From: Promethearchaeum sp.
Lineage (GTDB): Archaea; Asgardarchaeota; Lokiarchaeia; Sigyniarchaeales; Promethearchaeaceae
Reading direction: 5' to 3'
DNA length: 44,493 nucleotides
Assembly (NCBI GenBank): GCA_030612265.1
Contig: JAUWOE010000004.1
Coordinates: forward strand, 1 to 44,493
The stretch's first letter is position 1; every line of letters starts with the position of its first letter. A program made the position numbers and the translations under genes. Shown one piece after another: positions 6,096 to 42,342 of this stretch. The notes beneath the pieces were generated by a model. It did no database searches. It was not told the DNA's origin and saw only the letters and a list, made by a program, of their open reading frames with translations.

Positions 6096-7475
6096 TTATT
6101 TCTGAGAATCCGCAATTCCTCCTTTGGGAAGAATTCGCATTTTTGAATCTGCATCAAAGAAATGTAACTGATCATCTAAGAATTTGACTTTTATTTGCTC
6201 ATCTATTTTAAATGATGCAATCCCTTCAACTTTGGCAATCATTTCGATAAATTCAGGGAAATCGATATATACATACGTATCAGAACCAATAGGTTCAAGT
6301 ACACCGATTGTTGCACTAAGAGAATTATTAGTCTCACTTCGATTTAATTCAATATGCTCAGGTCTAATTCCTAAAATAACATCTTTCTCAATAAAATCTT
6401 CAATTCCTATTAAATAACGTTCTGGGATTTTATATGAAAAAGATTCTGAATGAAAGACTTTTCCCCCATCTTTATTTATTATTTTTCCATTCACAAAATT
6501 CATGGATGGTGAACCAATAAATCCTGCTACAAATTGATTTAATGGCGTATTATAAACCTCTTTAGGTGTGCCAATTTGATTTGCTATACCTTCATTTAGT
6601 ACAACAATTCTATCTCCCAAAGTCATTGCCTCGATCTGATCATGAGTGACATAGATTGTTGTAGCTTTTAGTTTATTTGTTAATCGTTGTAATTCTGCTC
6701 TCATTTGAACCCTTAGCTTAGCATCTAAATTACTTAAAGGCTCATCCATTAAAAACGCTTTTGGATTGCGGATTATTGCTCGACCAAGAGCAACACGTTG
6801 CCTTTGACCCCCACTCAACTGCTTTGGTTTTTTCCATAATTGTTTTTCAATTCCCAATAGTTTAATAGTCTCTTTTACTTTTTCATTGATATTGACTTCT
6901 TCTTCCTGTAATTGAACTATTGATTTGTTAAATTTAGATCCAAATGAAATAATTAGATTATGAATATCATGACGGGATTCAGGAAACATCACAAGCATTA
7001 ATGATACTCCAAAAAGTCCAGCCCAGAAAAATAGTATTCCATTTCCAGTTAAAAATGGGATAAAATTTAAGATATAACGACAAAAAGCCCAGAATAATAT
7101 GGCAATAATTCCATAAAAGAGTATTTCCATTGTAGATAAAATAAAATTTGCAGATTTTACTTTTTGTCTTGATCTCAAACCAAATGCGAGATTATCATAA
7201 ACCGTATAATGAGGGTAAAGGGCATAACTTTGAAAGACCATAGCGATATCTCTATCTTTTGGTGGAATATCGTTAACAATATTTTCATCGATTTTAATTA
7301 CTCCTTCAGAGATCTCTTCCAACCCTGCTAACATTCGTAAGCTTGTAGTTTTACCACATCCCGAAGGACCTACCAGACACACAAATTCTTGATCATCAAT
7401 TTCCAGATTTAAATTTTTAACTGCAATGAATTCTCCAAACTTTTTTGTTACATTTTCGAATATTATTTTAGCCAT
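6096..7475 (-). CDS. MalK-type sugar ABC transporter ATPase with an inserted membrane hairpin
   Basis: This nucleotide-binding subunit powers sugar import. Walker A GPSGCGKT (36-43), the Q-loop Gln82 in FQSYALYPH, the signature LSGGQRQR (220-227), Walker B with Asp244-Glu245, the D-loop SNLD and the H-loop His278 are all intact, so it should hydrolyse ATP. A C-terminal TOBE-like domain (about 300-455) is typical of MalK/UgpC/MsmX. MalK proteins usually have about 370 residues; this one has 459. The excess is a block of about 87 residues (roughly 106-192) between NLAFGLRSR and the helix before LSGGQ. It contains two hydrophobic stretches (about 111-136 and 138-163) that look like a membrane hairpin. 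This is the last gene of a five-gene operon, 13 bases after the MalG-like gene. A GGAGGT ribosome-binding site precedes the ATG. Confidence 0.92.
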   Translation of the reverse strand: MAKIIFENVTKKFGEFIAVKNLNLEIDDQEFVCLVGPSGCGKTTSLRMLAGLEEISEGVIKIDENIVNDIPPKDRDIAMVFQSYALYPHYTVYDNLAFGLRSRQKVKSANFILSTMEILFYGIIAILFWAFCRYILNFIPFLTGNGILFFWAGLFGVSLMLVMFPESRHDIHNLIISFGSKFNKSIVQLQEEEVNINEKVKETIKLLGIEKQLWKKPKQLSGGQRQRVALGRAIIRNPKAFLMDEPLSNLDAKLRVQMRAELQRLTNKLKATTIYVTHDQIEAMTLGDRIVVLNEGIANQIGTPKEVYNTPLNQFVAGFIGSPSMNFVNGKIINKDGGKVFHSESFSYKIPERYLIGIEDFIEKDVILGIRPEHIELNRSETNNSLSATIGVLEPIGSDTYVYIDFPEFIEMIAKVEGIASFKIDEQIKVKFLDDQLHFFDADSKMRILPKGGIADSQK

Positions 7476-7488
7476 ATTTTTACCTCCA

Positions 7489-8991
7489 TTATTTTATACC
7501 ACCTGCTACTGCTCCTACTGCAAGGGTTTTTTGTAATAACATAAAAAAAGTTACTATTGGTAGAGCCACTATAATCGAATAAGGGGCAACCAGATCAAAA
7601 TAAACTGGAGCATCACTTGTAGCCATATTTTGATAATTATAAAAAAGTAAGGGTAATGTCTGTTTTGTTTCAGCTTGGATGAATGTTCTTGCCAAAACAA
7701 AATCTTGCCAAGATGTAATTAATGTAAATAAAAGTACAGCAACCATTCCAGATTTTACAAGGGGTAAAGCTATTTTCACGAAAGTCCCCACTTTCCCTGC
7801 TCCATCCATAATAGAAGCTTCTTCAATATCAATTGGGATCGTTTCAAAATAACCCTTCATCATCCATGTACAATATGCTGTGGCTCCAGTCGATGAAGCT
7901 AAAAGAACACCAAGAATAACAACTTTCTCTTCTAGTAAACCTAAAGTAGACCAAATTATATATTGAGGAATTAATAATATTAAACCAGGGAACATTTGAG
8001 TCGAAATTATCAAGAATGTGAAGAATTTATTCCCTCTGAATTTAAACCGAGCTAAAGCATACGCTGCAGAAACTGCAACTATTAATCCGATAGTTCCAGT
8101 GCCTATTCCAAGAAAAATACTTCGTAGAAAAGCGGAACCAAACTGAGTTTCGTCTTTTGATACAGAGAAAATTACACTTGAATAGTTTATTATTAAAGCT
8201 TTAATTGGTTCTTTAACTTCCGCGGTAGAAACTCCTGAGAAGGTGGAAATGGAAATTTTTAATGTTAAATAGACAGGAAGGAGTGTGAATATTAGATAAA
8301 AAATTAAAACTAGATAAAAAGGAATATTTAAAAGTATATTTCTTATAACATCCCCAACGTTTTGCTTCATTCCAGGTTTTGCTGCTTTTTTTTCACGGTT
8401 ACCTATTAAGAATATTATTGTTAAAATTGTCAAGATAAAAAATATTATAGATATAATAATACCAATTATAAATATAAATTGTGAAAGATCACCAATATCT
8501 ATTCGAACCCAATCATATCCTGGTTGACCTGTATCGGTAATTAGTTTAATTCCTTCAATAACCCAAATACTATTAAACAACCAAAAACCAGTTATTGATG
8601 TTAATCCACTTGATATACTTAAAACAACTGTTAATTTCTTAACTTTTTCATTCCAAATTTTATCTATCATTATAATTTTTAATAAAAATGCAACTATTAC
8701 AAAGTTACATAATATTCCAAGCAAATACATAACGAGATAGGATGTTATCATATATCTCATATCTGTCAATGAAGTATTTTGATAAATTGGTGCAACACTT
8801 ACCCAACCTGATCCAGTAGTATACCTTATTCTATTCCATAGTAAAGATTCTATCTGATACCAAGAAATAAATAGTAAAATGAACCCAAAAATTGCGATTA
8901 TTAAGAAAATATTTTCTTTCGAGGTCTTTTCTGGTTCTAAGGTTAAGAAATTATCATTTTTTTCCGTTATTACTAGATTTTTTTCTGTCAA
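7489..8991 (-). CDS. MalG-type sugar ABC transporter permease with extra N-terminal helices
   Basis: The C-terminal part (about 215-500) is a standard MalG-like inner-membrane permease domain with the EAA loop EEASIMDGAGKVGTFVK (390-406), which contacts the ATPase. MalG proteins usually have about 280 residues; here about 210 residues come first and add around four predicted helices (near 27-48, 82-107, 120-140 and 168-195). The start is a TTG at 8991. It is supported by an AGGAG ribosome-binding site that overlaps the stop codon of the upstream MalF-like gene, and no ATG fits better. The C-terminus ends in AGGIK, as in many MalG proteins. The gene is the fourth in the operon and pairs with the MalF-like permease. 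Maltose or maltodextrin import is inferred from the surrounding amylases, not from the permease itself. Confidence 0.9.
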   Translation of the reverse strand: MTEKNLVITEKNDNFLTLEPEKTSKENIFLIIAIFGFILLFISWYQIESLLWNRIRYTTGSGWVSVAPIYQNTSLTDMRYMITSYLVMYLLGILCNFVIVAFLLKIIMIDKIWNEKVKKLTVVLSISSGLTSITGFWLFNSIWVIEGIKLITDTGQPGYDWVRIDIGDLSQFIFIIGIIISIIFFILTILTIIFLIGNREKKAAKPGMKQNVGDVIRNILLNIPFYLVLIFYLIFTLLPVYLTLKISISTFSGVSTAEVKEPIKALIINYSSVIFSVSKDETQFGSAFLRSIFLGIGTGTIGLIVAVSAAYALARFKFRGNKFFTFLIISTQMFPGLILLIPQYIIWSTLGLLEEKVVILGVLLASSTGATAYCTWMMKGYFETIPIDIEEASIMDGAGKVGTFVKIALPLVKSGMVAVLLFTLITSWQDFVLARTFIQAETKQTLPLLFYNYQNMATSDAPVYFDLVAPYSIIVALPIVTFFMLLQKTLAVGAVAGGIK

Positions 8992-10867: not shown

Positions 10868-12343
10868 CTATTTGGAATTTATCAAATATTTTTTTCTAAT
10901 TAAAAAAATAATTCCAACTGACATGGAAATTAATAGAAAACTAAGAGTATATCCAGGTATTTGAACTTCAGGTTCAGTAACATCAACTCCTTCAGGAGGA
11001 ATTATAATTCTCCAATTTGCATATACAGCAGAGATAAATTCATCTAAATTTAAATCTCCTGATAAATATTCATCAAGTCGATCAGATAATCGTTGTTCGA
11101 TTTGCGCCCAGCGATGATCAACGGGTACTACTGCAGCAGCTAATACAGCATCATAATAACTCTTAACATAAGGATAGTTCTCATGATTCATAACATCGTC
11201 TCGTTTCATAACGCTCATTCGTGCTGGAACATGATAGAATCCCTTTGCCTTCTCTGCCATGACATCTTCACTCGTAAGAAACTTACACAGTTTTACTGCA
11301 GCTTCATATTTAGCCCCTTCAGTGTTCTTTGAAATCACATAAGCTTGACCACCGACAGGTGCTCCTCTATTTCCCTCACTATCATGTGGAAGTTGAACGA
11401 TTCCCATATTATCCTTTGATGCATAAACTTTTGCTCCAGGAGCTCCAGGATTAAATTCAGGAGAATTATCTAAGAAGTTCTTTAATTCCCATGGTCCTTG
11501 TGAAACCATAGCCACTATTCCTTGATCACTAAACAGAATATTAATAGTAGACCAGCCTTGTTCTTCCCATCTTGGAGTGTATAAACTATTTGTTAAATTT
11601 TTCACAAACATAAATCCTTCTCGAGATTCTGTTGTATTGATTGCAATAGTTTCAAATTTTACAGTATCATTTGTAAAAAGATTTCCCCCATGACCAAAAT
11701 AGAATGGTTGTGCTCCGAAAAACATACCTGCTAAGGTTGTTGCATAAATACCATCATCAGTACTATTAACTGTAGCTAAAATAGACCAATATTCTTCCCA
11801 AGTCCATGATGTCTCAATTGTTAATTCTGATAGATCAATTCCAGCAAGTTCAAAGTGATGCTTATTATACATTAATGCTGGAGTATCTACAAGCTGTGGA
11901 AATGACCAATATTCTTCAATACCTGTGTCAGGATCTGGATACTTACTCATTTTTAAAGCAATCGGTAAGAAATCATTTAAATCATCTTCAGTTAATTCAG
12001 ATGTAATCGCTTTTAGCATTTTAGCATTAGCAAATTCCGGAACCCAATCTCTTGTTGCTCGAAAAACTTCTGGTTCTTCGCGGGCAATATATGCACTTTG
12101 GTAATCATTTCGGGCATTAAAGAAACCTTTTTGGGTGGCGGTAACATCAATATCTGGATTCAAAGTTTCAAATTGAGTTATTAGATCAGTAATCCCTGGT
12201 TTTTCAGTATCATTTTCTGTATACCAAAATGTTATTTCTGTTGGACCTTGTAAAGGTTGACCAATCGCAGTAATCGGAGCAAAAAGCATAATAGATAAAA
12301 CCCCGATACTAAATAAGCATAATAATTGTTTCTTTATTTTCAT
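10868..12343 (-). CDS. Extracellular sugar-binding protein (family 1), membrane-anchored
   Basis: This is a MalE-like family 1 solute-binding protein of 491 residues. It has a signal peptide (about 5-28), the start EITFWYTEND typical of mature family members, and conserved segments such as FWYGQ-like FYFGHGGNLF, MVSQGPWE and GAPVGGQAYVISKN. Instead of a lipobox cysteine it ends with IPGYTLSFLL, a hydrophobic segment and a Lys/Arg tail, so it is probably held at the membrane by its C-terminus. It starts one base after the stop of the preceding binding-protein gene, and a GAGGG ribosome-binding site lies inside that gene's last codons, which indicates translational coupling. Its ligand is probably a maltodextrin or a similar oligosaccharide, judged from the flanking amylases. 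Confidence 0.9.
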   Translation of the reverse strand: MKIKKQLLCLFSIGVLSIMLFAPITAIGQPLQGPTEITFWYTENDTEKPGITDLITQFETLNPDIDVTATQKGFFNARNDYQSAYIAREEPEVFRATRDWVPEFANAKMLKAITSELTEDDLNDFLPIALKMSKYPDPDTGIEEYWSFPQLVDTPALMYNKHHFELAGIDLSELTIETSWTWEEYWSILATVNSTDDGIYATTLAGMFFGAQPFYFGHGGNLFTNDTVKFETIAINTTESREGFMFVKNLTNSLYTPRWEEQGWSTINILFSDQGIVAMVSQGPWELKNFLDNSPEFNPGAPGAKVYASKDNMGIVQLPHDSEGNRGAPVGGQAYVISKNTEGAKYEAAVKLCKFLTSEDVMAEKAKGFYHVPARMSVMKRDDVMNHENYPYVKSYYDAVLAAAVVPVDHRWAQIEQRLSDRLDEYLSGDLNLDEFISAVYANWRIIIPPEGVDVTEPEVQIPGYTLSFLLISMSVGIIFLIRKKYLINSK

Positions 12344-12344
12344 T

Positions 12345-13790
12345 TTAAACCCTCATTTTTCTTTTTTTTGTAAAAAACACCAATACTGATGTTATCCCAA
12401 TTATACTTATTATTAAAATGGGATTTGCTCCAGGAATAGCCGCTTTTTCATCTTCTAGTGGTATCGGATCAATATTTGCATTTGTTGGAAGAGAACTACT
12501 GAATAATAAATTTAATCCTGTGCAAGTACTCAATTCATTTTGCTTTCCCGCCAGCATATTGTCCAATTGGACAATTTCTGCATCTTTTACAACGGAAGAA
12601 TATTGTGAGATGGGTTTGATCGAAGAACGATCGATAAATTCTTTATAAGCTTGAATAAAACGATTATTCTTAATGCTATCATCGTCATAGGCAGATTCAA
12701 TCGCAGGCATTAAGTATTCATTCTTAGCATTCTCAATCATAGCATCTTTTGAAGATAATGCTTGAGCAAGTTTAACTGCATTATCCATATTTGAAGATTG
12801 GGAATTAATCATTAATGCCATTACTTCAATCGGAGCGTACTTTCCAATTTCAGCCACTGGAACTGGAGCTATATCCAATTTGGATGAATCCGAAAATTGA
12901 GCACCATTTAATAAATATTTCAGATCCGAAGCGAGACTAAGTGTTGATGCAACATTTCCTACTTCAGCAAAATGAGAAAATGTATTTTTTGTCCCTTGTT
13001 CAGAGTAATCTATTGTTAATTTAAATACATTAACCAAATCATAGATGAATCCCATAGCTTCTACTGATTGATTGCTTAAGATTTCAATGTGAGAAACATC
13101 CATGACCAAATCCGAGAAATATTGTCCACCCGCTCCAAAGAAAAGAGCATTTGGCCCATATGGTAGATCCATAAAAGAAAAACCATATTTTTTATTATCT
13201 GGATTAGGATCGCTTTGATCATTCATTGCTGAAATCGCACCTTTAAACGCTTCTGTATCCCAAGTTCCATCATAAGAAGGAATAGAAACTGATGCAGGTA
13301 CATTTTCAGTATTATACAAATATCCTACAGTATCAACATATTGTGGAAATCCATAATACACTATATCATTAGTTACAACATAGTTTTCAACTTTATAATA
13401 GGATATTGCACGTTTGGCTTTTACCATATAATCTTCAACAAAAAATGTGCTATTAAAATCTTGGATTGTGTTTAACATTGCAAGTTCTCCTATCCAATCT
13501 GCAGAACCTTGAATTAAATCTGGACCATTACTTGATGCATATTTTGCAATATATTCCGATTTTAATTCATCATATGTCATAGAAATTGCATTAACAGTTA
13601 TAGCATTGGAAGATTCAAAATCGTCTATTAAATCTAGTAGAGTATCATCAACCATATCATCATCTATGTACCAAATAGTGAGTTCATCACTTGCTTTCAC
13701 ACTTACTGAAGACATAGAAATAATAAAAGACAATAATAGTAAACTAGAAAAAATGACTTTTACTGATTTTTTAACATTTATTCTTTTCAT
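12345..13790 (-). CDS. Second extracellular sugar-binding protein, membrane-anchored
   Basis: This is the first gene of the transporter operon, encoding a 481-residue family 1 solute-binding protein. After a signal peptide (about 10-33) the mature protein begins ELTIWYIDDD, like its neighbour. It shares the neighbour's layout (YGFPQYVDTVGYLYN against WSFPQLVDTPALMYN), so the two genes look like an ancient tandem duplication. It is more divergent from standard MalE proteins than its neighbour. It too ends with an IPG motif (IPGANPILII), a hydrophobic segment and a basic tail. The ATG is preceded by AAAGGTG with suitable spacing. Two binding proteins in one operon may widen the range of oligosaccharides taken up; this is an inference. 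Confidence 0.85.
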   Translation of the reverse strand: MKRINVKKSVKVIFSSLLLLSFIISMSSVSVKASDELTIWYIDDDMVDDTLLDLIDDFESSNAITVNAISMTYDELKSEYIAKYASSNGPDLIQGSADWIGELAMLNTIQDFNSTFFVEDYMVKAKRAISYYKVENYVVTNDIVYYGFPQYVDTVGYLYNTENVPASVSIPSYDGTWDTEAFKGAISAMNDQSDPNPDNKKYGFSFMDLPYGPNALFFGAGGQYFSDLVMDVSHIEILSNQSVEAMGFIYDLVNVFKLTIDYSEQGTKNTFSHFAEVGNVASTLSLASDLKYLLNGAQFSDSSKLDIAPVPVAEIGKYAPIEVMALMINSQSSNMDNAVKLAQALSSKDAMIENAKNEYLMPAIESAYDDDSIKNNRFIQAYKEFIDRSSIKPISQYSSVVKDAEIVQLDNMLAGKQNELSTCTGLNLLFSSSLPTNANIDPIPLEDEKAAIPGANPILIISIIGITSVLVFFTKKRKMRV

Positions 13791-14024: not shown

Positions 14025-14151
14025 CAAATATTAAAAATCTATAAATTTGATGAAAATTAAATTAAAATCGAATTTTTTCACATCTTTCTTATAATTTCAT
14101 TATTTTAAGAAATCAAATTCTTTAAATGTCAAAATGCTCAATACTTTAAAT

Positions 14152-14157
14152 GGAGGT
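14152..14157 (+). promoter_or_regulatory. Ribosome-binding site that fixes the pullulanase start
   Basis: GGAGGT lies nine bases before the ATG at 14167, ideal spacing. The longer frame beginning at the ATG at 14134 would have to be translated through this site and lacks a ribosome-binding site of its own. Confidence 0.75.
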
Positions 14158-14166
14158 TTTATCGAA

Positions 14167-17100
14167 ATGAATCCACTTAGTTTAAAAAAAAAAATTCTAA
14201 TTATTTTATTGGGGTTTAGTTTCGCTCTTACCCCGTCTTTTTCGAGTATGAGCGCATCAGAGATTAGCAATCAACCTTTATCGGAAGCTGATCCAGTTGT
14301 AAATCTAATCATTATTTGGCACCAACATCAGCCTTCTTATCAGGATCCTGAAACGTTAATTTATGAGCAACCTTGGGTTTTTATGCATGGTACAAATTCA
14401 TATCCTTATATGGCAGATATACTTAATGTTTATCCAAGCATAAATGTTACAATCAATTTGACACCTTCTCTATTACATCAACTTTCAGATTATATTAATG
14501 GAACTGCATACGATAGAAGGATTGAATTGTTTAAAATGGATGAGGCTTCAATGAGTTTTGAAAATAAAAGTATTGTTATGCAGTACTTTTTTGACATTAA
14601 TTCACAATTTAGACAAGAAGGAAGCCGTTATTGGGAATTGTCTCAAAAAAGAAATCAGTATGCAACATTGGCAGAACAAGTTAATGCTTTTTCAAATCAA
14701 GATTTTCTAGATTTAAAAGTATTATTCTTTTTACATTGGATTAATCCAAGGTATACTGATGAAGGGATTTATCAATTTCTATTAGATCATGATGTTGCTG
14801 GAAACCATTATAATTCTGGTGACAAGACTACTGTACTAGATTTGGGACAGTCTTTGGTGGAAGACTCTATTCTTTACCATAAAAACATTCAGAATGAAGG
14901 AAGACTCGAAATAATTACCACTCCATTCTATCATCCTATCCTTCCTTTATTGATAAACACTTCAAATGCTAGAGAAGTAAATCCGGGAGTGGCAGATCTT
15001 CCCCTTCCTGATCAAAATACATTATGGACTGAAGATGCCTTATTACAAATTGAAAAGGGGAGAAATTACACGAGTGTTTTGTTTGGACAAGATCCAGTTG
15101 GTATGTGGCCATCAGAACATGCCGTTAGCGATGAAATTATTCCATTGGTTAACCAGAGTAATCTCCAATGGTTTGTAACTGACTATACAGTATTACGGAA
15201 TAGTTTAGGTGTTTCAACTTTAACTCCAGAGCAATGGTTTAAGCCATATCTTGTGGAAAAAGATGGCCTCTCTTCTGTTGCATTCTTCCGCCATCAACAA
15301 CTTTCAGATGAAGTTGGATTTAATTATGGAGGTCTCCATCCTAACACATCTGCTCAAAATATGATTAACTCATTAAAAGTTTTTCAAGAGAATTGGGTTG
15401 GAGTAGATGATCCAGTTCTAACTGTTGCTTTAGATGGTGAAAATGCATGGGAGAATTACCAATATGATTTAGACGGCGACGGAGATGTTGAATATACAGG
15501 TAATCTATTCAGAGAAAAAATGTATGAATTATTAGAAGTTGCTCAAGTAGATGGATGGCTCCGAACAATAACACCAAAACAATACTTGGCTGAACATCCT
15601 GCAGATACTTTAGACACTTTAAATCTTGCCACGGGTTCATGGGCAGGCGATTTAAACATCTGGATTGGTGAAGATGAAGAAAATTGGGCATGGGATCAAC
15701 TAATAACTACTCGAGATGATTTAGTTGAATTTATGGCTAATGAAACTCTAACAAAAGAAGATCTTCCAGAAGCATGGGAAGCATTATATGCTGCTGAAGG
15801 CAGCGATTGGTTTTGGTGGTACGGATCAGATCGAGACAGTGGTCATGATGACCTCTTTGATTGGCAATTTAAATCAATTTTAAGAGGAGTTTATAAAGCT
15901 ATAAATTGGACAGACACTGAAATAATGAATGAATATCCTATCCTATTTCTTAAAAATTTACCCCCAGTTGCAGCATCCATTGAGGGAAAACAAGAACCAA
16001 CCATTGACGGTATTTTTACTGATGGATCTGAGTGGACTTTGGCTGCAAATTTAAGTCATAGTTTAGCAAATAATACAAATCACGTGATAAAAGATCTATA
16101 TCTCGGTGTAGATGAAGTAATCGATGATCTCCATATTGCAATTACCACAACTGATGCATTTGATTTAGGGACTAGTGATGATTTATCATTTGGATTATAT
16201 TTCTCCAGTCCAGATCTCGAAAATAAACAACTTTTCCCACGTTTTACCGATCCTTTAAATTCAAGTCATATTTTGGGATTCGAATTAGCAACTGAAATTC
16301 GAATTGATTTAGACGATACTTCAGAAGCGAAAATTTACAGGGTAAATGAAACAAATGAATGGGAGTTAGCATTAGATACAATAACTACCTTAGCGGTAAA
16401 TGACATCATCGAAATAACAATACCACTCACCGCATTAAATATTGAAAAAGGAAAATCAATATTTATGAATGTTCTAGCAACCAATGATACATTGAACGAA
16501 AATATTGATAAAGCACCCAGTGATGGTCCTTGGAGTTTAAATATTCCTATTGGAGGGGTAGATATGACCGAAGTATTTTCAATGGCAGATCCAAGCGAGG
16601 ATGAACATGGAATTTATCCGACAAACCCGCAGATGCATCCAGATGGAGATGTTGAGCAAACTGGATTAATGGATATTCTCAGATTTAGAATTGGATATCA
16701 AGATGATCACGTATATTTTGAGTTTAAATTCCGAGAACTTTATAATCCTTGGAACGGTCCAGGAGGATACAGTCATCCCTTAATGCAAGTATATATTGAT
16801 AAAGACAATATTCCAGGATCTGGAAGTACCACCTGTGATCAAAATGGACATTTTAATATCGAAGATGAACATGCCTGGGAAATGATGGTTCGAGCAGATG
16901 GATGGTTACAATATGTGCTATATTCAAATCAAACAATGTTAGAAGGATCTGTGGAAACCTTTTCAGATTCAGTTGATAATATAATCGTTTATTCTGCACT
17001 ACTTTCAATTATAGGAACACCATCTCCAGATTGGGCATATACCGTAGTAGTGGGATCCCAAGATTACCAAGCATTTAGAGATTTTCTTAGTCAGCCTCAA

Positions 17101-17664
17101 GAATGGAAATTTGGAGGAGGAGACGATTCAGAATGGGACCCAAATATTGTTGATTGTTTAGTCCCTGAAGGAATAGATCAAGAAGCAATTTTGAATTCCT
17201 ATGATGTTCTAAATCAACAATACTGCACTATTCCTGCAGTAGGTCTAAATGTACAATTTCAAGAAGATACTATCGCACCAAATATTTCAATCATTGAGCC
17301 GTTAGACGATCCCTTTGAAGTTTCAATACCTAGGGGAGAATCAACTGCTTCAGTAAATATTAGCTGGGAAGCATCTGATGATAAAGAAATTGATCGCTTT
17401 GAGATTTATGATGGAAATGAATTTCTTTCGGAATACAATGCGACTATAAGTTCTGTAATTTTGGAATTACCAGAAGGTGAACATATAATTAAAGTTAATG
17501 TCTTTGATTCTGCAGAAAATTATTCTTCCGACTCAATTACTATAATAGTAACAACAGGATCGAAAATTTCAGGATTTCCGATATTGTTATTGTTGGGGAG
17601 TATTGGATTAGTTGTAGGTTTGATTATAAAAAACCAAAAATTAAAAATAAAAAAGGATTTATAG
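14167..17664 (+). CDS. GH57 amylopullulanase-type enzyme, multidomain, surface-anchored
   Basis: This 1165-residue secreted enzyme probably cleaves alpha-1,4 and alpha-1,6 bonds of starch-like glucans. After a signal peptide (about 5-30) comes a GH57 catalytic region with HQHQP (52-56), RLEIITTPFYHP (about 246-257), GMWPSEHAV (nucleophile Glu317) and ALDGENAWENY (acid/base Asp423). These motifs agree with those known from archaeal GH57 pullulanases. A WFWWYGSDRDSGHDD segment near 548 is also typical of them. Then follow a CBM9/DOMON-like domain (about 605-780), a glucodextranase-C-like module (about 800-1020), an Ig-like domain (about 1035-1120), and a hydrophobic anchor with a Lys-rich tail. 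The start at 14167 is chosen for its GGAGGT site. The gene is divergent from the sugar transporter operon and ends 14 bases from the convergent GH13 gene. Confidence 0.92.
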   Translation: MNPLSLKKKILIILLGFSFALTPSFSSMSASEISNQPLSEADPVVNLIIIWHQHQPSYQDPETLIYEQPWVFMHGTNSYPYMADILNVYPSINVTINLTPSLLHQLSDYINGTAYDRRIELFKMDEASMSFENKSIVMQYFFDINSQFRQEGSRYWELSQKRNQYATLAEQVNAFSNQDFLDLKVLFFLHWINPRYTDEGIYQFLLDHDVAGNHYNSGDKTTVLDLGQSLVEDSILYHKNIQNEGRLEIITTPFYHPILPLLINTSNAREVNPGVADLPLPDQNTLWTEDALLQIEKGRNYTSVLFGQDPVGMWPSEHAVSDEIIPLVNQSNLQWFVTDYTVLRNSLGVSTLTPEQWFKPYLVEKDGLSSVAFFRHQQLSDEVGFNYGGLHPNTSAQNMINSLKVFQENWVGVDDPVLTVALDGENAWENYQYDLDGDGDVEYTGNLFREKMYELLEVAQVDGWLRTITPKQYLAEHPADTLDTLNLATGSWAGDLNIWIGEDEENWAWDQLITTRDDLVEFMANETLTKEDLPEAWEALYAAEGSDWFWWYGSDRDSGHDDLFDWQFKSILRGVYKAINWTDTEIMNEYPILFLKNLPPVAASIEGKQEPTIDGIFTDGSEWTLAANLSHSLANNTNHVIKDLYLGVDEVIDDLHIAITTTDAFDLGTSDDLSFGLYFSSPDLENKQLFPRFTDPLNSSHILGFELATEIRIDLDDTSEAKIYRVNETNEWELALDTITTLAVNDIIEITIPLTALNIEKGKSIFMNVLATNDTLNENIDKAPSDGPWSLNIPIGGVDMTEVFSMADPSEDEHGIYPTNPQMHPDGDVEQTGLMDILRFRIGYQDDHVYFEFKFRELYNPWNGPGGYSHPLMQVYIDKDNIPGSGSTTCDQNGHFNIEDEHAWEMMVRADGWLQYVLYSNQTMLEGSVETFSDSVDNIIVYSALLSIIGTPSPDWAYTVVVGSQDYQAFRDFLSQPQEWKFGGGDDSEWDPNIVDCLVPEGIDQEAILNSYDVLNQQYCTIPAVGLNVQFQEDTIAPNISIIEPLDDPFEVSIPRGESTASVNISWEASDDKEIDRFEIYDGNEFLSEYNATISSVILELPEGEHIIKVNVFDSAENYSSDSITIIVTTGSKISGFPILLLLGSIGLVVGLIIKNQKLKIKKDL

Positions 17665-25811: not shown

Positions 25812-27911
25812 TTATTTTAATAATTGCTGAATTTTCTCTAACAATTCGATTAATGAAAATGGTTTTTGAAGTAGATTAATGCCCGCTTCTAATTCCCCAT
25901 CCTTACTTAATATATTCGCATCATAACCTGAAATAAACAATACAGTTATATCGGAACGTTGCTTTATAATTTTCTTTTTGAGTTCAAGCCCAGAAAAATC
26001 AGGCATAATTACATCACTTAATAGTAAATCTATTTTTCCTTTATATTCTTGAGAAATTTTTACAGCTTCTTTTGGACCTTTGGCCTCTAAACAATTGTAA
26101 CCATGAGAATTTAACACATTCAATGCAAATTTCCTAACCATTTCTTCATCTTCAACAAGCAAAATAGTTTGGTTACCATGAAGTTTTCCTCGGTTTTTTA
26201 TTTCATTCTCATTTTCTTCAAGACCAATTTCATCACTTCCTGGAAAATGCATATGAAAAACGGTCCCAACTCCAAATTCTGATTCTACTTTAACTTCTCC
26301 GTTAAACTGTTTTATGATTCCAAACGCTGTTGACAACCCTAAACCTGTTCCTTTTCCCTTTTCTTTAGTTGTAAAGAACGGCTCAAATATATGCTGCATT
26401 TGATTTTCATCCATTCCAATACCCGTATCTCTTACCGAGATCTTAATATATTCTCCAGACTTTAAATCAAAACCATTCATGTCTTTGGTTATGTATATAC
26501 TTGATGTTTCTATTATGAATTTTCCCCCATTTGGCATTGCATCCCGTGAATTTAATGCCAAATTTAAAATAACCAAAGATAGTTGGTTAGGATCAATTTC
26601 AATGCATTTAATATCGTGATCTAATTTTAAATTGAAAGCAATATTTTCACCCAATACCCTTGTAATCATATCCTCATTATTTTGAAATAATTTGTTAACA
26701 TTCACTATTTGAGATTGATAAACTTGTTTTCTACTGAATGTGAGGATATCCTTTGTTAGTTTAGCAGCTCTATCTCCTGCTCTCATTATATCTTCTAAAT
26801 TTTTGATAAGTTCATTTTTATCCATCTCATAATTATCATCTTTCAAGGAATCTATAGATAAATTAGATAAACCGAGTATTACTGTTAAAACATTATTAAA
26901 ATCGTGAGCTATCCCCCCTGCAAATTGACCAATCGCCTCCATCTTTTGAGATTGCATTAATTCATCTTGAGCTGTTTTCAACTCTGAAGTTTTCTCATTA
27001 ACTCGTTTTTTTAAAGTTCTGTTCCATAGACTTAGTGTACCAATTCCTAAAAGCGAAATTAATAAAAATACTCCAATAAAGATCAAGATTTCACTTGAAA
27101 AAAAGTTAGATCCGAATCCTGTTCCAAACCATTTTTCATATATCTTATTATATTCGCCCGTTTCAAACAGAATGTCAAGTGCTGCATTAATTTTCTCAAG
27201 CAAACTTGTATTTCCTTTCTTCACTGCAATACAAAATGGTCCAAAAACCAATTCTTCTCCAATCACCTTTATTCCTTCATAATTATGCTCCTGAATGAAA
27301 TAAGAAACAATATGCATTTCATCAAAAAGTGCAAAAACCTCGTCATTTGCCAACATTTCGAGACCATCTTGAACTTTTTCTACTACAACAAGATGAGCAT
27401 CCGGTACGTTATTTTCAAGGTATATATGCGTTGCATATTGATTAACCACGGCAACCGTATGATTTGCCAGATCATATGCATCGGAGATTCCCACCACCTT
27501 CTCGTTTACGAATATCCTATTGGAAAGATTCAAAATTGGTTTGCTAAAATCAAAAAATTCACGCCTCTCGGGAGTGTCTGTTGCACATAATATATCCAAT
27601 GACCCATTTTTTACCGATTCTAACACATCATTCCAATCCATCGGATAATATTCCACAACATAATCCATATTTTCTCCCATTTTTTTAACTAAATCTACAT
27701 CAAATCCCTTGACTTTCCCATTCTCGACAAATTCTCCAGGGGGCCAACCAGGATCTACCCCATATTTTAAAATCCCTTCTTGACCGGAAACATTATTAAC
27801 TATTCCAATTGAACCAAAGAATATTATCAAAATCGTATAAACCACTGCAAAATTGGTTAGACCTTTGCTTGATTTCATAAATCCATAGGGTTTTGATTTG
27901 CTCAATAACAA
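25812..27911 (-). CDS. Hybrid sensor histidine kinase with SBP3 sensor and receiver domain
   Basis: A membrane sensor of 699 residues. Domains in order are an N-terminal hydrophobic segment (about 20-42), an extracellular family 3 solute-binding domain (about 46-263, with PEGYPP-like DPGWPPGEF and DILCATDTPERREFFDFSKP), a membrane helix (about 274-295), a short coiled coil (303-322), HisKA with His336 in AGGIAHDFNN, HATPase with Asn454, GIGM and GTGLGLS, and a receiver domain (about 582-699) with Asp633 and Lys683. The ligand is probably an amino acid or small amine, as usual for SBP3. It looks strongly bacterial and was likely acquired by transfer. No separate response regulator or output gene is adjacent. 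The TTG at 27911 (AAGTGA upstream) is used here; an ATG at 27878 would remove 11 residues. Confidence 0.9.
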   Translation of the reverse strand: MLLSKSKPYGFMKSSKGLTNFAVVYTILIIFFGSIGIVNNVSGQEGILKYGVDPGWPPGEFVENGKVKGFDVDLVKKMGENMDYVVEYYPMDWNDVLESVKNGSLDILCATDTPERREFFDFSKPILNLSNRIFVNEKVVGISDAYDLANHTVAVVNQYATHIYLENNVPDAHLVVVEKVQDGLEMLANDEVFALFDEMHIVSYFIQEHNYEGIKVIGEELVFGPFCIAVKKGNTSLLEKINAALDILFETGEYNKIYEKWFGTGFGSNFFSSEILIFIGVFLLISLLGIGTLSLWNRTLKKRVNEKTSELKTAQDELMQSQKMEAIGQFAGGIAHDFNNVLTVILGLSNLSIDSLKDDNYEMDKNELIKNLEDIMRAGDRAAKLTKDILTFSRKQVYQSQIVNVNKLFQNNEDMITRVLGENIAFNLKLDHDIKCIEIDPNQLSLVILNLALNSRDAMPNGGKFIIETSSIYITKDMNGFDLKSGEYIKISVRDTGIGMDENQMQHIFEPFFTTKEKGKGTGLGLSTAFGIIKQFNGEVKVESEFGVGTVFHMHFPGSDEIGLEENENEIKNRGKLHGNQTILLVEDEEMVRKFALNVLNSHGYNCLEAKGPKEAVKISQEYKGKIDLLLSDVIMPDFSGLELKKKIIKQRSDITVLFISGYDANILSKDGELEAGINLLQKPFSLIELLEKIQQLLK

Positions 27912-31265: not shown

Positions 31266-31560
31266 GATTTTTCAGTAAGGAATTTTTTTTAGAATTAATA
31301 TAATATATTCTTATTTTCCTTAAATGTTTTAGTTTAGAGAAAAAATCACAGACAAAATGACACAAAAATGAGCTCAAAAGCGAGCGAATTGGGTTAATGA
31401 AATGCAAACAAGAAAAAAAATGAGTAATATTTTAAAAAATTTTTTTATCATGGTAGCCTCAGAATACAACCTTGAAGTCCAAAGTGCTATCTACTATTAT
31501 TATCAAATAGATTTTCCAAAGTGTTATCAAGTTAAAAGATGTATTTTAAATCCGAACTAG
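31266..31560. other. Intergenic region with GTPase promoter and a doubtful 52-codon frame
   Basis: The part next to 31265 holds an AT-rich minus-strand promoter for the GTPase. A plus-strand frame from the ATG at 31402 to the TAG at 31560 would give a 52-residue peptide ending in LNPN. It has no ribosome-binding site, overlaps the end of the LRR gene, and matches no family I know. I do not call it a gene. Confidence 0.3.
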
Positions 31561-33471
31561 AATATCCCCTATATCTTTTTCAAGCTTGAACTTCTCCCAA
31601 ATAAATGCAGGTAATATTTCTCTATATCCAGAAGGTAAATTAATTCTCTCCAACGAAGGCATTTTATATATCTCCTTTGGTATTTCAAGATTCTTGTTTC
31701 GAAAATCTAAAAATAAAATTTTCAATTTTTTACAGTTGACTAGTGTTTTAGGGATTCTAATTAATTTTGGAATGCTTAATGCTAAAAATTCCAAATTTTC
31801 CAATTTATTGCTTTCTAAATTCCATTGTGTTATTTTATTTGATTGTATGCTTAAATATTTTAAATTCTCTAAATCACTCAAACTACTCGGGATTTCTTCT
31901 AAATTTTCTGTGATTAGCGAGAGACTCTTTAACGATGTAAATCTTGAAAAGATATCTGGAATCGATATAGTTTTCAAGTTTCCCAATTTTAAAATTAACA
32001 AATTCGGCATATCAGGTAAAGAATTTATAACCTTTGTCATATCTTTTACATCTATTTCAAGTTGTTTCATCTTTTTGGCATTTTTTTTTAAGAAAACGAG
32101 ATTTTCTTCAAACTTGTAGTTAGTTATTCTTAAAACGGATGGATTTCTTGTTTTACAATATTGACATATCTTATTTCCAATATCTGAAGATGTAAGGACA
32201 AATTCCGCCCCACAATTTTCACAGATCCAAGAGTCCTCACTAAATATTGGAAGGACATTCGATTTAAAATGAAGTTTAAAATTTCTCTTATAGCTGTTTT
32301 TAATATAATTTTTTGGGAAAACTCGAATCAAATTCCTATTCCCATCAATTGTTAAATTTGGATTGGGTTTTAGAAGAAATTTGGGTAATTCTCTAATTTG
32401 ATTATAACCAATATTTATTCTATTAAGTTTAATCAATTTGATACATGAAGTCGGAAAATCCGATATCCTATTGGCAAATATATTTAGATTCTGAAGCTCT
32501 GTCAAATTTCCAAATTCTTTAGGTAATTTAGTGATTCGATTGCCATTTAATTCTAAAAATTGTAGATTTCTTAAATTACATAAAGACTCAGGAATTTCTT
32601 CAATTTGATTATTACCTAATCGCAATTGTGTTAGATTCACGAGATCTCCGATATTTTCTGGAATTGCCTTAAGTTTTCCTTTTTGTATCCGCAAAATATT
32701 AAGATTTCTCAATTTAGTAATTTCAACTGGTAAAAACTCTATATCACAATCTAAAATAGAGAATTCTTTCAATTTTATTAAATCTCCAATCCAAGGATGA
32801 ATTATTTTAAGTACATTTTCTCTAGGAATAGTTTTAGGAGAAATATGAAAATTTTCAAGATGTTTTAATGTGCTTAATTCCTTAGGAATAAATTCACAGT
32901 TATAATCATAAATAGTAAGATTTCTCAATCGAGTGAAATGTTGAATTATTTCAAATATTTTTATTGCATCGGTATCCTTATTAAATATCATAGTCAATAA
33001 AATTACGTGATTTTTCTCCATAAGATAACCGAAAGGTTGATAATCTTCATCAGAATGAACTCGTATAAACTTAACATGTAAATGATCTTCAAGTTCCTTT
33101 AATTTGGATAGTTCGAATTTCAAAGTCCCTGATGCTTTAGCTTCTTTTGAGGAAAAATCTGTCTCTTTTAATATATCTGTTTTAAATTCTAGCATACCTT
33201 CTGACCTGACTTTTAATTTAGATTGCCAATAATGAGAAATTCCATCTGCATCATTTCCTATTATTTCTCCAGAATCTTTAGAAGTCATATAAAAATAGTA
33301 CCATCTCTTAGGAGTTTCGATAAAGAAAATATCAGGATGTCCCCCTTTAGAAAGATAATGAACGTCCTCAATCGACCAATCTATAAGAGGTAAGACTAAT
33401 TTTGCGATTTTATATTTCTGGGGATACTTTTTTAGATATTCAGAAATCGATTTTTTGTATTTTGCTGTCAT
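31546..33471 (-). CDS. Leucine-rich-repeat protein interrupted by a zinc ribbon
   Basis: This 641-residue cytosolic protein has three parts. Residues 1-170 form an unrecognised N-terminal domain. Residues about 180-380 contain leucine-rich repeats of the LxxLxLxxNxIxxIP kind (for example NLTQLRLGNNQIEEIPESL). Then a zinc ribbon follows with WICENCGAEF and ICQYCKTRN, giving Cys417, Cys420, Cys436 and Cys439. After it, a second set of repeats (about 465-635) continues to the C-terminus. There is no signal peptide or membrane segment. Proteins of this kind serve protein-protein recognition; in bacteria similar repeats are coupled to GTPases. The GTPase gene is the next downstream gene on the same strand, though 280 bases away. 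A specific function cannot be given. Confidence 0.85.
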   Translation of the reverse strand: MTAKYKKSISEYLKKYPQKYKIAKLVLPLIDWSIEDVHYLSKGGHPDIFFIETPKRWYYFYMTSKDSGEIIGNDADGISHYWQSKLKVRSEGMLEFKTDILKETDFSSKEAKASGTLKFELSKLKELEDHLHVKFIRVHSDEDYQPFGYLMEKNHVILLTMIFNKDTDAIKIFEIIQHFTRLRNLTIYDYNCEFIPKELSTLKHLENFHISPKTIPRENVLKIIHPWIGDLIKLKEFSILDCDIEFLPVEITKLRNLNILRIQKGKLKAIPENIGDLVNLTQLRLGNNQIEEIPESLCNLRNLQFLELNGNRITKLPKEFGNLTELQNLNIFANRISDFPTSCIKLIKLNRINIGYNQIRELPKFLLKPNPNLTIDGNRNLIRVFPKNYIKNSYKRNFKLHFKSNVLPIFSEDSWICENCGAEFVLTSSDIGNKICQYCKTRNPSVLRITNYKFEENLVFLKKNAKKMKQLEIDVKDMTKVINSLPDMPNLLILKLGNLKTISIPDIFSRFTSLKSLSLITENLEEIPSSLSDLENLKYLSIQSNKITQWNLESNKLENLEFLALSIPKLIRIPKTLVNCKKLKILFLDFRNKNLEIPKEIYKMPSLERINLPSGYREILPAFIWEKFKLEKDIGDILVRI

Positions 33472-37361: not shown

Positions 37362-37565
37362 ATGAAATCAAAGTTAAGGATTTATTTAGATACTTCAGTA
37401 ATATCTGCGGTTTTTGATCAAAAACATCCAGAACGTCAATCCCTAACAAAATATTTTTTTAAAATGAAAGATGTTTTTAAAATTTTTATTTCTGAATTAA
37501 CTCAACTTGAGATTAATCAATTTCGCATAGGGCTACTGAAGATATTTCATCATCATCCGAACTAA
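37362..37565 (+). pseudogene. Truncated PIN-domain (VapC-like) toxin gene
   Basis: From the ATG at 37362 the frame encodes the N-terminal third of a PIN domain: LRIYLDTSVISAVFD with the first metal-binding Asp10, then HPERQSLTKYF and IFISELTQLEI with the second acidic region (Glu44/Glu50). A full PIN toxin has about 130-150 residues. The likeness stops at residue 51, exactly at the stop codon of the convergent gyrA gene (37513-37515). The last 16 codons are simply gyrA read backwards. The remaining acidic residues of the nuclease centre are missing, so no active toxin is made. No antitoxin gene precedes it. Confidence 0.75.
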
Positions 37566-40014
37566 ACCTCATAATAATTACACCCATAGTAGCCCTTCCT
37601 GTTTCTCGGATATCATCAGTGCGAATTCGAATTAATAATCCCATTTCACTGGCAAGTAAGAGATTTTTTTCAGAAGGAACTGCTTTCACAGCTATTACCT
37701 CATCATTTTTGGAACGCAACTTAATATTTATTACACCTTTGCCACCGCGATGTGTTAATCGATATAGTTTTAATTTGGTATGTTTCCCATATCCTTTTTT
37801 AGTGATAGTGATTATTGAGGTATCGGGATCATGAATGACCGCATCAACAACTTCATCATCTAAGCGTAATTTAATTCCTCTAACACCCATTGCCGTTCTA
37901 CCGGATGATCTGAGTTCATTTTCTTTAAAACGAATCGCAAAACCATTTTTAGTAGCAATTAATACTTCTTCCTTAGGGTTACATAATTTAACACGAACAA
38001 GTTTATCATCTTCACGAATTGTTATGCATTTAATTCCAGTTTGTCTTATTTTAGAAAATGCGCTCAAATTTGTTTTCTTTGTTATACCCTTAGCAGAAAC
38101 AAAAACTAAACTTTTCTTAACACCTGTAAAGCTTTCAATATTGGTTATATCAATTATTTTTTCACCGGGCTTGAGATTAACATAGTTTACAAGCGCTTTG
38201 CCTCTTGCATTTCTTGAAGCCATTGGGAATTTAAAAGCGGGAACCGAATATATCCTTCCTTGTTGAGTAAAAAGTAGGATAGTATCGTGGCTTGAAGCAA
38301 TAAACATATTTACGATAACATCTTCTTCTCTCATTTTCATACCACGCTTTCCTTTTCCACCTCTCCCTTGAGCTTGATATTGTTCAAGGGTCATTCGTTT
38401 AACTTTTTGATCTTGGGTGATTACAATAACACATTCTTCTTCAGGAACAGTTTCCTTGTAAGTAAATTTATATTCTTCTTCCATCTCTTGAATTTCTGTC
38501 CTTCGTTCATCCCCATATCTCTTTGTAATTTCATGAGATTCAGTTTTGATAATTTGGAGGATTTTTTTACGATCTGCAAGAATAGCTTTTAATTTTTTGA
38601 TTTTCTTTACAAGCTCATCCTTTTCATCGATCAATTTCTTATTTTGTAGATTAGTTAATCGACTTAGAGGCATTTTCAGAATTTCTGTGACCTGTAAGTC
38701 TGTAAGTGAATAATTGTTCATTAAGACTTTAGTGGCATCCTTAGCATCTGCACTTTTTTTAATGAGCTGAACAATGGCATCAATATTATCAATTGCAATA
38801 AGTAATCCTTCAATGATGTGCATTCTTCTTTCTGCTTTTTTTAAATTAAAGGCAGTTCGGCGCCTTATTACGTCTTCGCGGTGAGTAATAAATTCTTTTA
38901 TGATTTCTAAATAATTTAGAACTTTTGGTTGTCTACCATTATTGATCAGGGCTAAATTAATAATATTAAAAGTGTTTTGGAGTTGAGTTTTATTGTATAA
39001 TCTATTCAAACAAGCATTTGCATCAGAATTTCTCTTTAATTCTATTACAATTCTCATACCCTTACGATCTGATTCATCTCGAACATCAGAAATTTCAGGA
39101 ATTACTTTATTATTAACCAATAATGCTATTTTTTTAATTAAAACAGATTTATTAACAATATATGGAATTTCAGACACAACAATAGAATCACGGTTTTTTC
39201 CAGTACCATTGGGAACTATCTCACATTTTCCCCGAACAACAATGGAACCACGACCTGTATAAATAGCGTCTTTGATTCCTTGACGTCCCATTATTATGCC
39301 ACCAGTTGGAAAATCGGGACCTTTAATGTATTTTTCAACATCACTTCCATCAAAATTATCAACACCCATATCAATTGCTGCGCAAATTGCATCATTTATC
39401 TCAGTTAGATTATGGGGAGCAATAGTTGTTGACATTCCCACAGCAATACCAGCCGCACCGTTCATCAATAATAACGGAAGTTTTGCAGGCAAATAAATAG
39501 GTTCTTTGAGTGAACCATCAAAATTATCTTGAAAATCTACAGTATCTTTGTCCAGTTCTTCCAATAATAATTCAGATATCTTGGCTAATCGTGCCTCTGT
39601 ATATCGCATAGCTGCTGCTGCGTCGCCATCAATTGAGCCAAAATTGCCTTGTTTATCAATTAACAAATATCTAACAGAAAAATCTTGAGCTAATCTTACA
39701 AGTGCCGCATAAACCGACTGATCACCATGTGGATGATATTTTCCCATACAGTCCCCAACAATCCGCGCGCATTTAAAATGAGGTTTGTTATAGTAGAAGT
39801 TATTTTGCGCCATGGAATACAGAATTCTGCGTTGAACAGGCTTACAACCGTCTCTAACATCTGGAATGGCTCTTCCGACAATAACAGACATAGAATAATC
39901 GAGGTATGAACGTGAAAGTTCCGCTCTTAATTCCCTTTCAATTATTTTTGATAATCCTGGATTCAAAACAGGTTCAGAATCAGTTCCAAGTTCATTATTG
40001 GGAATTTTTGACAT
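37513..40014 (-). CDS. gyrA: DNA gyrase subunit A
   Basis: GyrA cuts and rejoins DNA in the gyrase tetramer that introduces negative supercoils. The 833-residue protein has the breakage-reunion domain (about 25-480) with the catalytic Tyr138 in AMRYTEARL, and the C-terminal beta-propeller (about 500-830). The propeller carries a GyrA-box, QGRGGKGKRG, which separates gyrase from topoisomerase IV. Six repeats of the propeller can be traced (for example GRIYSVPAFKFP and GFAIRFKENELR). The ATG at 40014 is preceded by GTGAT. It lies 40 bases after gyrB on the same strand and was presumably acquired with it from bacteria. Its stop overlaps the end of the truncated PIN gene. Confidence 0.97.
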   Translation of the reverse strand: MSKIPNNELGTDSEPVLNPGLSKIIERELRAELSRSYLDYSMSVIVGRAIPDVRDGCKPVQRRILYSMAQNNFYYNKPHFKCARIVGDCMGKYHPHGDQSVYAALVRLAQDFSVRYLLIDKQGNFGSIDGDAAAAMRYTEARLAKISELLLEELDKDTVDFQDNFDGSLKEPIYLPAKLPLLLMNGAAGIAVGMSTTIAPHNLTEINDAICAAIDMGVDNFDGSDVEKYIKGPDFPTGGIIMGRQGIKDAIYTGRGSIVVRGKCEIVPNGTGKNRDSIVVSEIPYIVNKSVLIKKIALLVNNKVIPEISDVRDESDRKGMRIVIELKRNSDANACLNRLYNKTQLQNTFNIINLALINNGRQPKVLNYLEIIKEFITHREDVIRRRTAFNLKKAERRMHIIEGLLIAIDNIDAIVQLIKKSADAKDATKVLMNNYSLTDLQVTEILKMPLSRLTNLQNKKLIDEKDELVKKIKKLKAILADRKKILQIIKTESHEITKRYGDERRTEIQEMEEEYKFTYKETVPEEECVIVITQDQKVKRMTLEQYQAQGRGGKGKRGMKMREEDVIVNMFIASSHDTILLFTQQGRIYSVPAFKFPMASRNARGKALVNYVNLKPGEKIIDITNIESFTGVKKSLVFVSAKGITKKTNLSAFSKIRQTGIKCITIREDDKLVRVKLCNPKEEVLIATKNGFAIRFKENELRSSGRTAMGVRGIKLRLDDEVVDAVIHDPDTSIITITKKGYGKHTKLKLYRLTHRGGKGVINIKLRSKNDEVIAVKAVPSEKNLLLASEMGLLIRIRTDDIRETGRATMGVIIMRFSSDDDEISSVALCEID

Positions 40015-40054
40015 AAATTATCACAGAGTTTCCATGCAAGCAATTTTGATTTAT

Positions 40055-42274: not shown

Positions 42275-42342
42275 GTGCATCACCATTGATAAAAATAATT
42301 GAAAATAGCGCAAAAGGGGGGATTTTTTTTTGTTTATACAAA

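Follow-up and report, generated by a model that had tools for sequence, protein, structure and literature searches.

Why should the ATPase of a sugar importer carry a pair of membrane-type helices within its own nucleotide-binding domain (NBD)? E. coli MalK is peripheral, whereas a MalK-like gene in the stretch of Promethearchaeum sp. DNA analysed here (44,493 nucleotides, referred to below as the window) encodes a protein with two predicted transmembrane segments. The features of this gene are listed first.

6096..7475, minus strand: MalK/UgpC-type ABC ATPase, 459 aa, with Walker A, Q-loop, LSGGQ, Walker B, H-loop, OB_MalK and the TOBE_2 C-terminal domain all intact
6900..7160, minus strand: about 86 extra residues (106-192) inserted into the helical subdomain, between the Q-loop and LSGGQ and kept in seven genomes
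7068..7145, minus strand: first predicted transmembrane helix, at residues about 111-136 (107-138 in the AlphaFold model)
6984..7040, minus strand: second predicted transmembrane helix, at residues about 146-164 (140-163 in the AlphaFold model)
6939..6983, minus strand: short helix that follows the hairpin (165-179 in the AlphaFold model), carrying a [PA]-E-x-R motif

The ATPase and its insert

PF00005 (ABC_tran), PF17912 (OB_MalK) and PF08402 (TOBE_2) all match the protein above cut-off, and it scores 441 against the NCBIfam UgpC model NF008653 (cut-off 432). An ABC ATPase domain followed by an OB_MalK/TOBE_2 C-terminal domain is the arrangement of the MalK/UgpC (CUT1) ATPases. AlphaFold, run with an alignment of 27 sequences, gives a model with a mean pLDDT of 90.5, and a Foldseek comparison of this model with the PDB recovers MalK-type ATPases such as AlgS, with TM-scores by target of up to 0.94. 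The predicted model therefore has the three-dimensional fold of a MalK and, apart from the hairpin described below, we predict a normal MalK fold with high confidence. The multitask sugar ATPases MsmX/UgpC (6yir, 7x0q) are among the closest solved ATPases in both sequence and fold, although MsmX lacks the insert. Known MalK proteins of this type are peripheral subunits with no transmembrane segments, attached to the membrane solely through their partners, whereas two such segments are predicted in all seven orthologues that carry the insert and none in 20 insert-less MalKs, and for this reason we class the hairpin ATPase as a variant of the MalK/UgpC type.

An earlier note on this DNA described an insertion of about 87 residues (106-192) in an otherwise intact MalK, and that description holds. 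These residues map exactly to 6900-7160 on the minus strand, and a profile alignment to solved MalK chains breaks there, ending at about residue 106 and restarting at about residue 192, equivalent to positions of about 107 and 109 in the solved chains. FG and LSGGQ lie 115-120 residues apart in the hairpin proteins other than G088. In 20 Asgard MalKs that lack the insert the distance is 34 residues, or 48 in one subgroup, and the net insert is therefore about 81-86 residues. In MsmX the helical subdomain comprises residues 88-154 (PMC7658222), and it is this subdomain that receives the EAA coupling helices of the permeases (PMC3150292). Searches with the insert gave only sub-threshold chance matches in Pfam and no credible match in a profile search of the PDB. 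An origin through a mobile element or repeats was also considered, and no notable flanking repeats were found.

The site tolerates insertions, as the MalKs of one Asgard family (L077, L082, L086 and L088, from genomes G104, G105, G101 and G111 respectively) have a polar insert of 14 residues in the same place. Longer additions occur in an OppD/DppD-type ATPase on another contig of the Promethearchaeum genome (L003:5314-6588, plus strand), where some 65 charged and helix-prone residues have been added between the Q-loop and the signature motif, and in a 684-aa MalK of another genome (L084:991-3042, minus strand, G008), in which the site is occupied by a long, charged, repeat-like stretch and the C-terminal tail is TPR-like. 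These two proteins resemble the hairpin ATPase in having extra residues between the Q-loop and the signature motif, but their inserts are charged and helix-prone and do not span the membrane.

A predicted membrane hairpin

The earlier note placed two hydrophobic stretches at residues 111-136 and 138-163. Both are present, although the second is displaced: better positions for the two segments are about 111-136 and 146-164, separated by a short turn that bears no charge. Each exceeds 2 in Kyte-Doolittle hydropathy, with crude insertion energies of -3.3 and -2.4 respectively; the energy scale is approximate, with a crude centre weighting, and Kyte-Doolittle scans agree with it. All seven orthologues have exactly two hydrophobic segments of spanning grade (crude energies of about -1 to -4), and no other segment of these proteins, nor any segment of the 20 insert-less Asgard MalKs, falls below +2. 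Mean pairwise identity among the hairpin ATPases is 23% in the insert, compared with about 70% in the flanking NBD, yet the hydrophobic segments are retained, which argues that hydrophobicity is what is conserved in the insert.

Each of the seven orthologues has 0-1 lysines or arginines in the turn, 2-6 before the hairpin and 3-6 after it. A turn nearly devoid of positive charge between positive flanks favours a cytosolic location for both flanks, in agreement with the suggestion in the earlier note that both ATPase halves remain in the cytosol.

The AlphaFold model contains helices at residues 92-103, 107-138, 140-163, 165-179 and 184-207. The two hairpin helices (107-138 and 140-163) have pLDDT values of about 84-93, in a prediction that takes no account of the membrane, and they are joined almost without a loop to the subdomain helix 92-103. 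We therefore predict with high confidence a helical hairpin that grows straight from the helical subdomain. This model and the hydrophobicity kept throughout the seven orthologues support the previous proposal of two membrane helices inside this part of the NBD, and make a strong case that the hairpin is inserted in the membrane. If the helices do span it, the insertion point would be close to the membrane, as the first hairpin helix begins right after the subdomain helix (residue 103 to residue 107). This would fit with E. coli MalK Lys106, which cross-linking and suppressor studies reportedly connect with the site of EAA contact. The motif carried by the helix after the hairpin takes the form [PA]-E/D-x-R in orthologue alignments, in which R168 is invariant and E166 nearly so.

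Distribution, operon and enlarged permeases

The search of homologous ATPases in related genomes that the earlier note had proposed uncovered the insertion in six other Asgard genomes. With the insert profiles, the insert-bearing ATPase is found in seven of 228 genomes of the phylum, spread over five families. A protein search of relatives identified an orthologue of 66% identity, also bearing the insert, in Candidatus Harpocratesius repetitus FW102 (G007), whose genome is a single contig of 4.36 Mb, and the other carriers are G106 (Hodarchaeota YT1_021), G099 and G097 (Heimdallarchaeota), G150 (Lokiarchaeota LW30_13) and G088 (Dive96_bin2.176). Several false matches of the first insert profile (frames with stops or without an ATPase) were dropped, and the two weakest extra matches among the 228 genomes contain stops. 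No credible further copy was seen in a 393-genome set reaching into other archaea, where one extra match (G299) has internal stops, and the searches made gave no member outside Asgard. The seven hairpin ATPases, few as they are and too few for an analysis of residue co-variation, form one clade (support 87/89; 84% of bootstrap trees). The hairpin importer adds a lineage-restricted change to nutrient uptake in the archaea closest to eukaryotes.

Five closely spaced minus-strand genes run from 13790 down to 6096 with gaps of 1-13 bases, in the order of two solute-binding proteins, MalF-like, MalG-like and finally MalK.

7489..8991, minus strand: MalG-like permease, 500 aa, with about four extra N-terminal transmembrane helices and then a six-helix core with the EAA loop
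9004..10854, minus strand: MalF-like permease, 616 aa, with extra transmembrane helices in the TM1-TM2 and TM3-TM4 loops
10868..12343, minus strand: solute-binding protein 2 (SBP_bac_8/SBP_bac_1), with a Loki-CTERM tail in keeping with Asgard relatives
12345..13790, minus strand: solute-binding protein 1 (SBP_bac_8/SBP_bac_1), by domain matches
14134..17664, plus strand: divergent neighbour, a GH57 enzyme with a Glucodextran_C domain, amylopullulanase-like; a similar neighbour is present at orthologous loci

Both permeases contain PF00528 and both binding proteins PF13416/PF01547, all within one operon whose order is kept at orthologous loci, as in a transporter of the MalFGK2 type. The two distinct solute-binding protein genes per transporter (10868-13790) are adjacent at most orthologous loci, with only one beside the transporter in G150. 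Neighbours in the window and at related loci include GH57 enzymes, Glucodextran_C proteins, alpha-amylase, 4-alpha-glucanotransferase (GH77) and alpha-glucan phosphorylase, and this gene context points to maltodextrin (starch or glycogen fragments) as the putative substrate.

By hydropathy MalF and MalG have about 9-12 transmembrane helices each, compared with eight and six in their E. coli counterparts. The extra helix pairs of MalF sit in two outer loops. The AlphaFold model of MalG has a mean pLDDT of 57.3 with a poorly predicted core and extension helices between residues 25 and 203, and a fold search with this low-confidence model recovered the permease core only. Nothing credible in the PDB matches the MalG extension by sequence, and a claudin-family identity, indicated by a weak match in one of five sequences (E 0.044), was not accepted. 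The extension (8340-8991) includes a conserved WNR..Y..G..W loop following the first of its four helices.

The earlier note had raised a possible link between the hairpin and the enlarged permeases, and their co-occurrence is exact. A MalG profile run against the 228 Asgard genomes finds the full-length extended protein in precisely the seven hairpin genomes (in G097 the start of the contig alone truncates it), with matches to the core alone in other genomes, and a profile scan of genome contigs likewise confines full-length MalG relatives to Asgard genomes. Across the same 228 genomes, a MalF profile matches the enlarged MalF at E < 1e-50 in five of the seven hairpin genomes and nowhere else, the contig stopping short of MalF in the remaining two. 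As a control, other Asgard importers with permease ORFs of 13-20 predicted transmembrane helices have insert-less MalKs, which argues that permease size alone is not the cause of the hairpin. The hairpin is linked to this one extended permease family and not to permease enlargement in general, although shared inheritance of an operon can yield such co-occurrence without physical contact. Among the large permeases, ORFs with 16-20 predicted transmembrane helices (frames of about 1050-1160 aa) beside an insert-less MalK at L044, L047-L050 and L052 are possibly fused MalF-MalG proteins.

Proposed architecture and alternatives

We lean towards an arrangement in which the ATPase of a maltodextrin-type CUT1 importer is embedded in the membrane by its hairpin, and the hairpin is packed against the additional helices of the permeases. 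The helical subdomain of the NBD would have acquired a transmembrane hairpin, each MalK thereby becoming an integral membrane protein, and since both ends of the hairpin are proposed to be cytosolic the catalytic domain would retain its normal fold. The assembled importer would comprise one MalF, one MalG and two MalK subunits, with the two hairpins flanking the permease core and packed against the additional MalG and MalF helices, to provide a second connection between ATPase and permease in addition to the EAA coupling helices. Likely benefits would be a private pairing with these permeases among the several MalK paralogues of a cell, and a steady placement of the helical subdomain during its rotation on ATP binding. 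We hold the packing of the hairpin against the permease helices with moderate confidence, and a role in coupling is conceivable. That these importers form a distinct Asgard subclass, with integral ATPases whose hairpins are seated on accessory helices in the two permeases, a further mechanical link from ATP hydrolysis to transport besides the EAA coupling helices and about 24 transmembrane helices per complex, we put forward tentatively, as a possible reading.

The hairpin might instead be a simple membrane tether, keeping the ATPase near the membrane or aiding assembly without contacting the extra helices or affecting coupling. The low identity of an insert that nonetheless stays hydrophobic is as expected were lipid contact all that counts, but we consider a tether unlikely, as it would not account for a hairpin that accompanies a single enlarged permease family exactly, and no other permeases, nor for the conserved motif directly after the hairpin. 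Quite improbable, in our estimation, is a hydrophobic helix pair that does not span the membrane, lying at its cytosolic face or docked in a groove of the enlarged permeases. The location in a subdomain that contacts the permease loops would suit such a pair, and the very short turn in the AlphaFold model would allow a shallow or re-entrant hairpin, but both helices have the length needed to cross a membrane (32 and 24 residues as modelled), and the membrane-like energies and the charge pattern hold in all seven orthologues. An assembly error, a frameshift or a fusion with a stray membrane-protein fragment, which the fragmented source genome (3.77 Mb in 317 contigs) might have suggested, can be given virtually no credence, because the same insert occurs in six independent Asgard orthologues, one of them in a single-contig genome, and all are in an uninterrupted frame.

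The favoured arrangement, a hairpin packed against the extra permease helices, has much in common with E. coli MalFGK2 (MalK: 1q12, 2r6g, 9bcr), including the ATPase fold, the OB/TOBE regulatory domain, the operon logic of binding protein and two permeases and the maltodextrin context. It differs in that E. coli MalK has no insert, there is one periplasmic binding protein rather than two, and the complex has 14 transmembrane helices rather than the approximately 24 proposed here. MsmX serves several permeases (PMC7658222), whereas the hairpin would predict a dedicated ATPase, the opposite of such a multitask protein. Fused ABC exporters also have an ATPase covalently joined to membrane helices, but there the transmembrane domain flanks the NBD, whereas in the hairpin MalK the helices fall within the NBD and exist alongside permeases that are proteins of their own. 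Searches of the open-licence literature turned up neither an NBD that contains a transmembrane hairpin nor this transporter, and an earlier description elsewhere is possible.

Hairpin and enlarged permeases together suggest that motor and channel are joined here in a new way. In importers of this kind, short coupling helices are understood to be the main contact between ATPase and permease, and models of the transport cycle centre on this joint. A second, membrane-embedded joint, if it exists, would show that importer architecture can change, and would offer a natural test of which tasks fall to the coupling helices by themselves.

Elsewhere in the window, the minus strand encodes a hybrid histidine kinase that combines a sensor domain of the SBP_bac_3 type with a receiver domain (25812-27911), a leucine-rich-repeat protein of 641 aa (31546-33471) and adjacent genes for DNA gyrase A and B (37513-42313).
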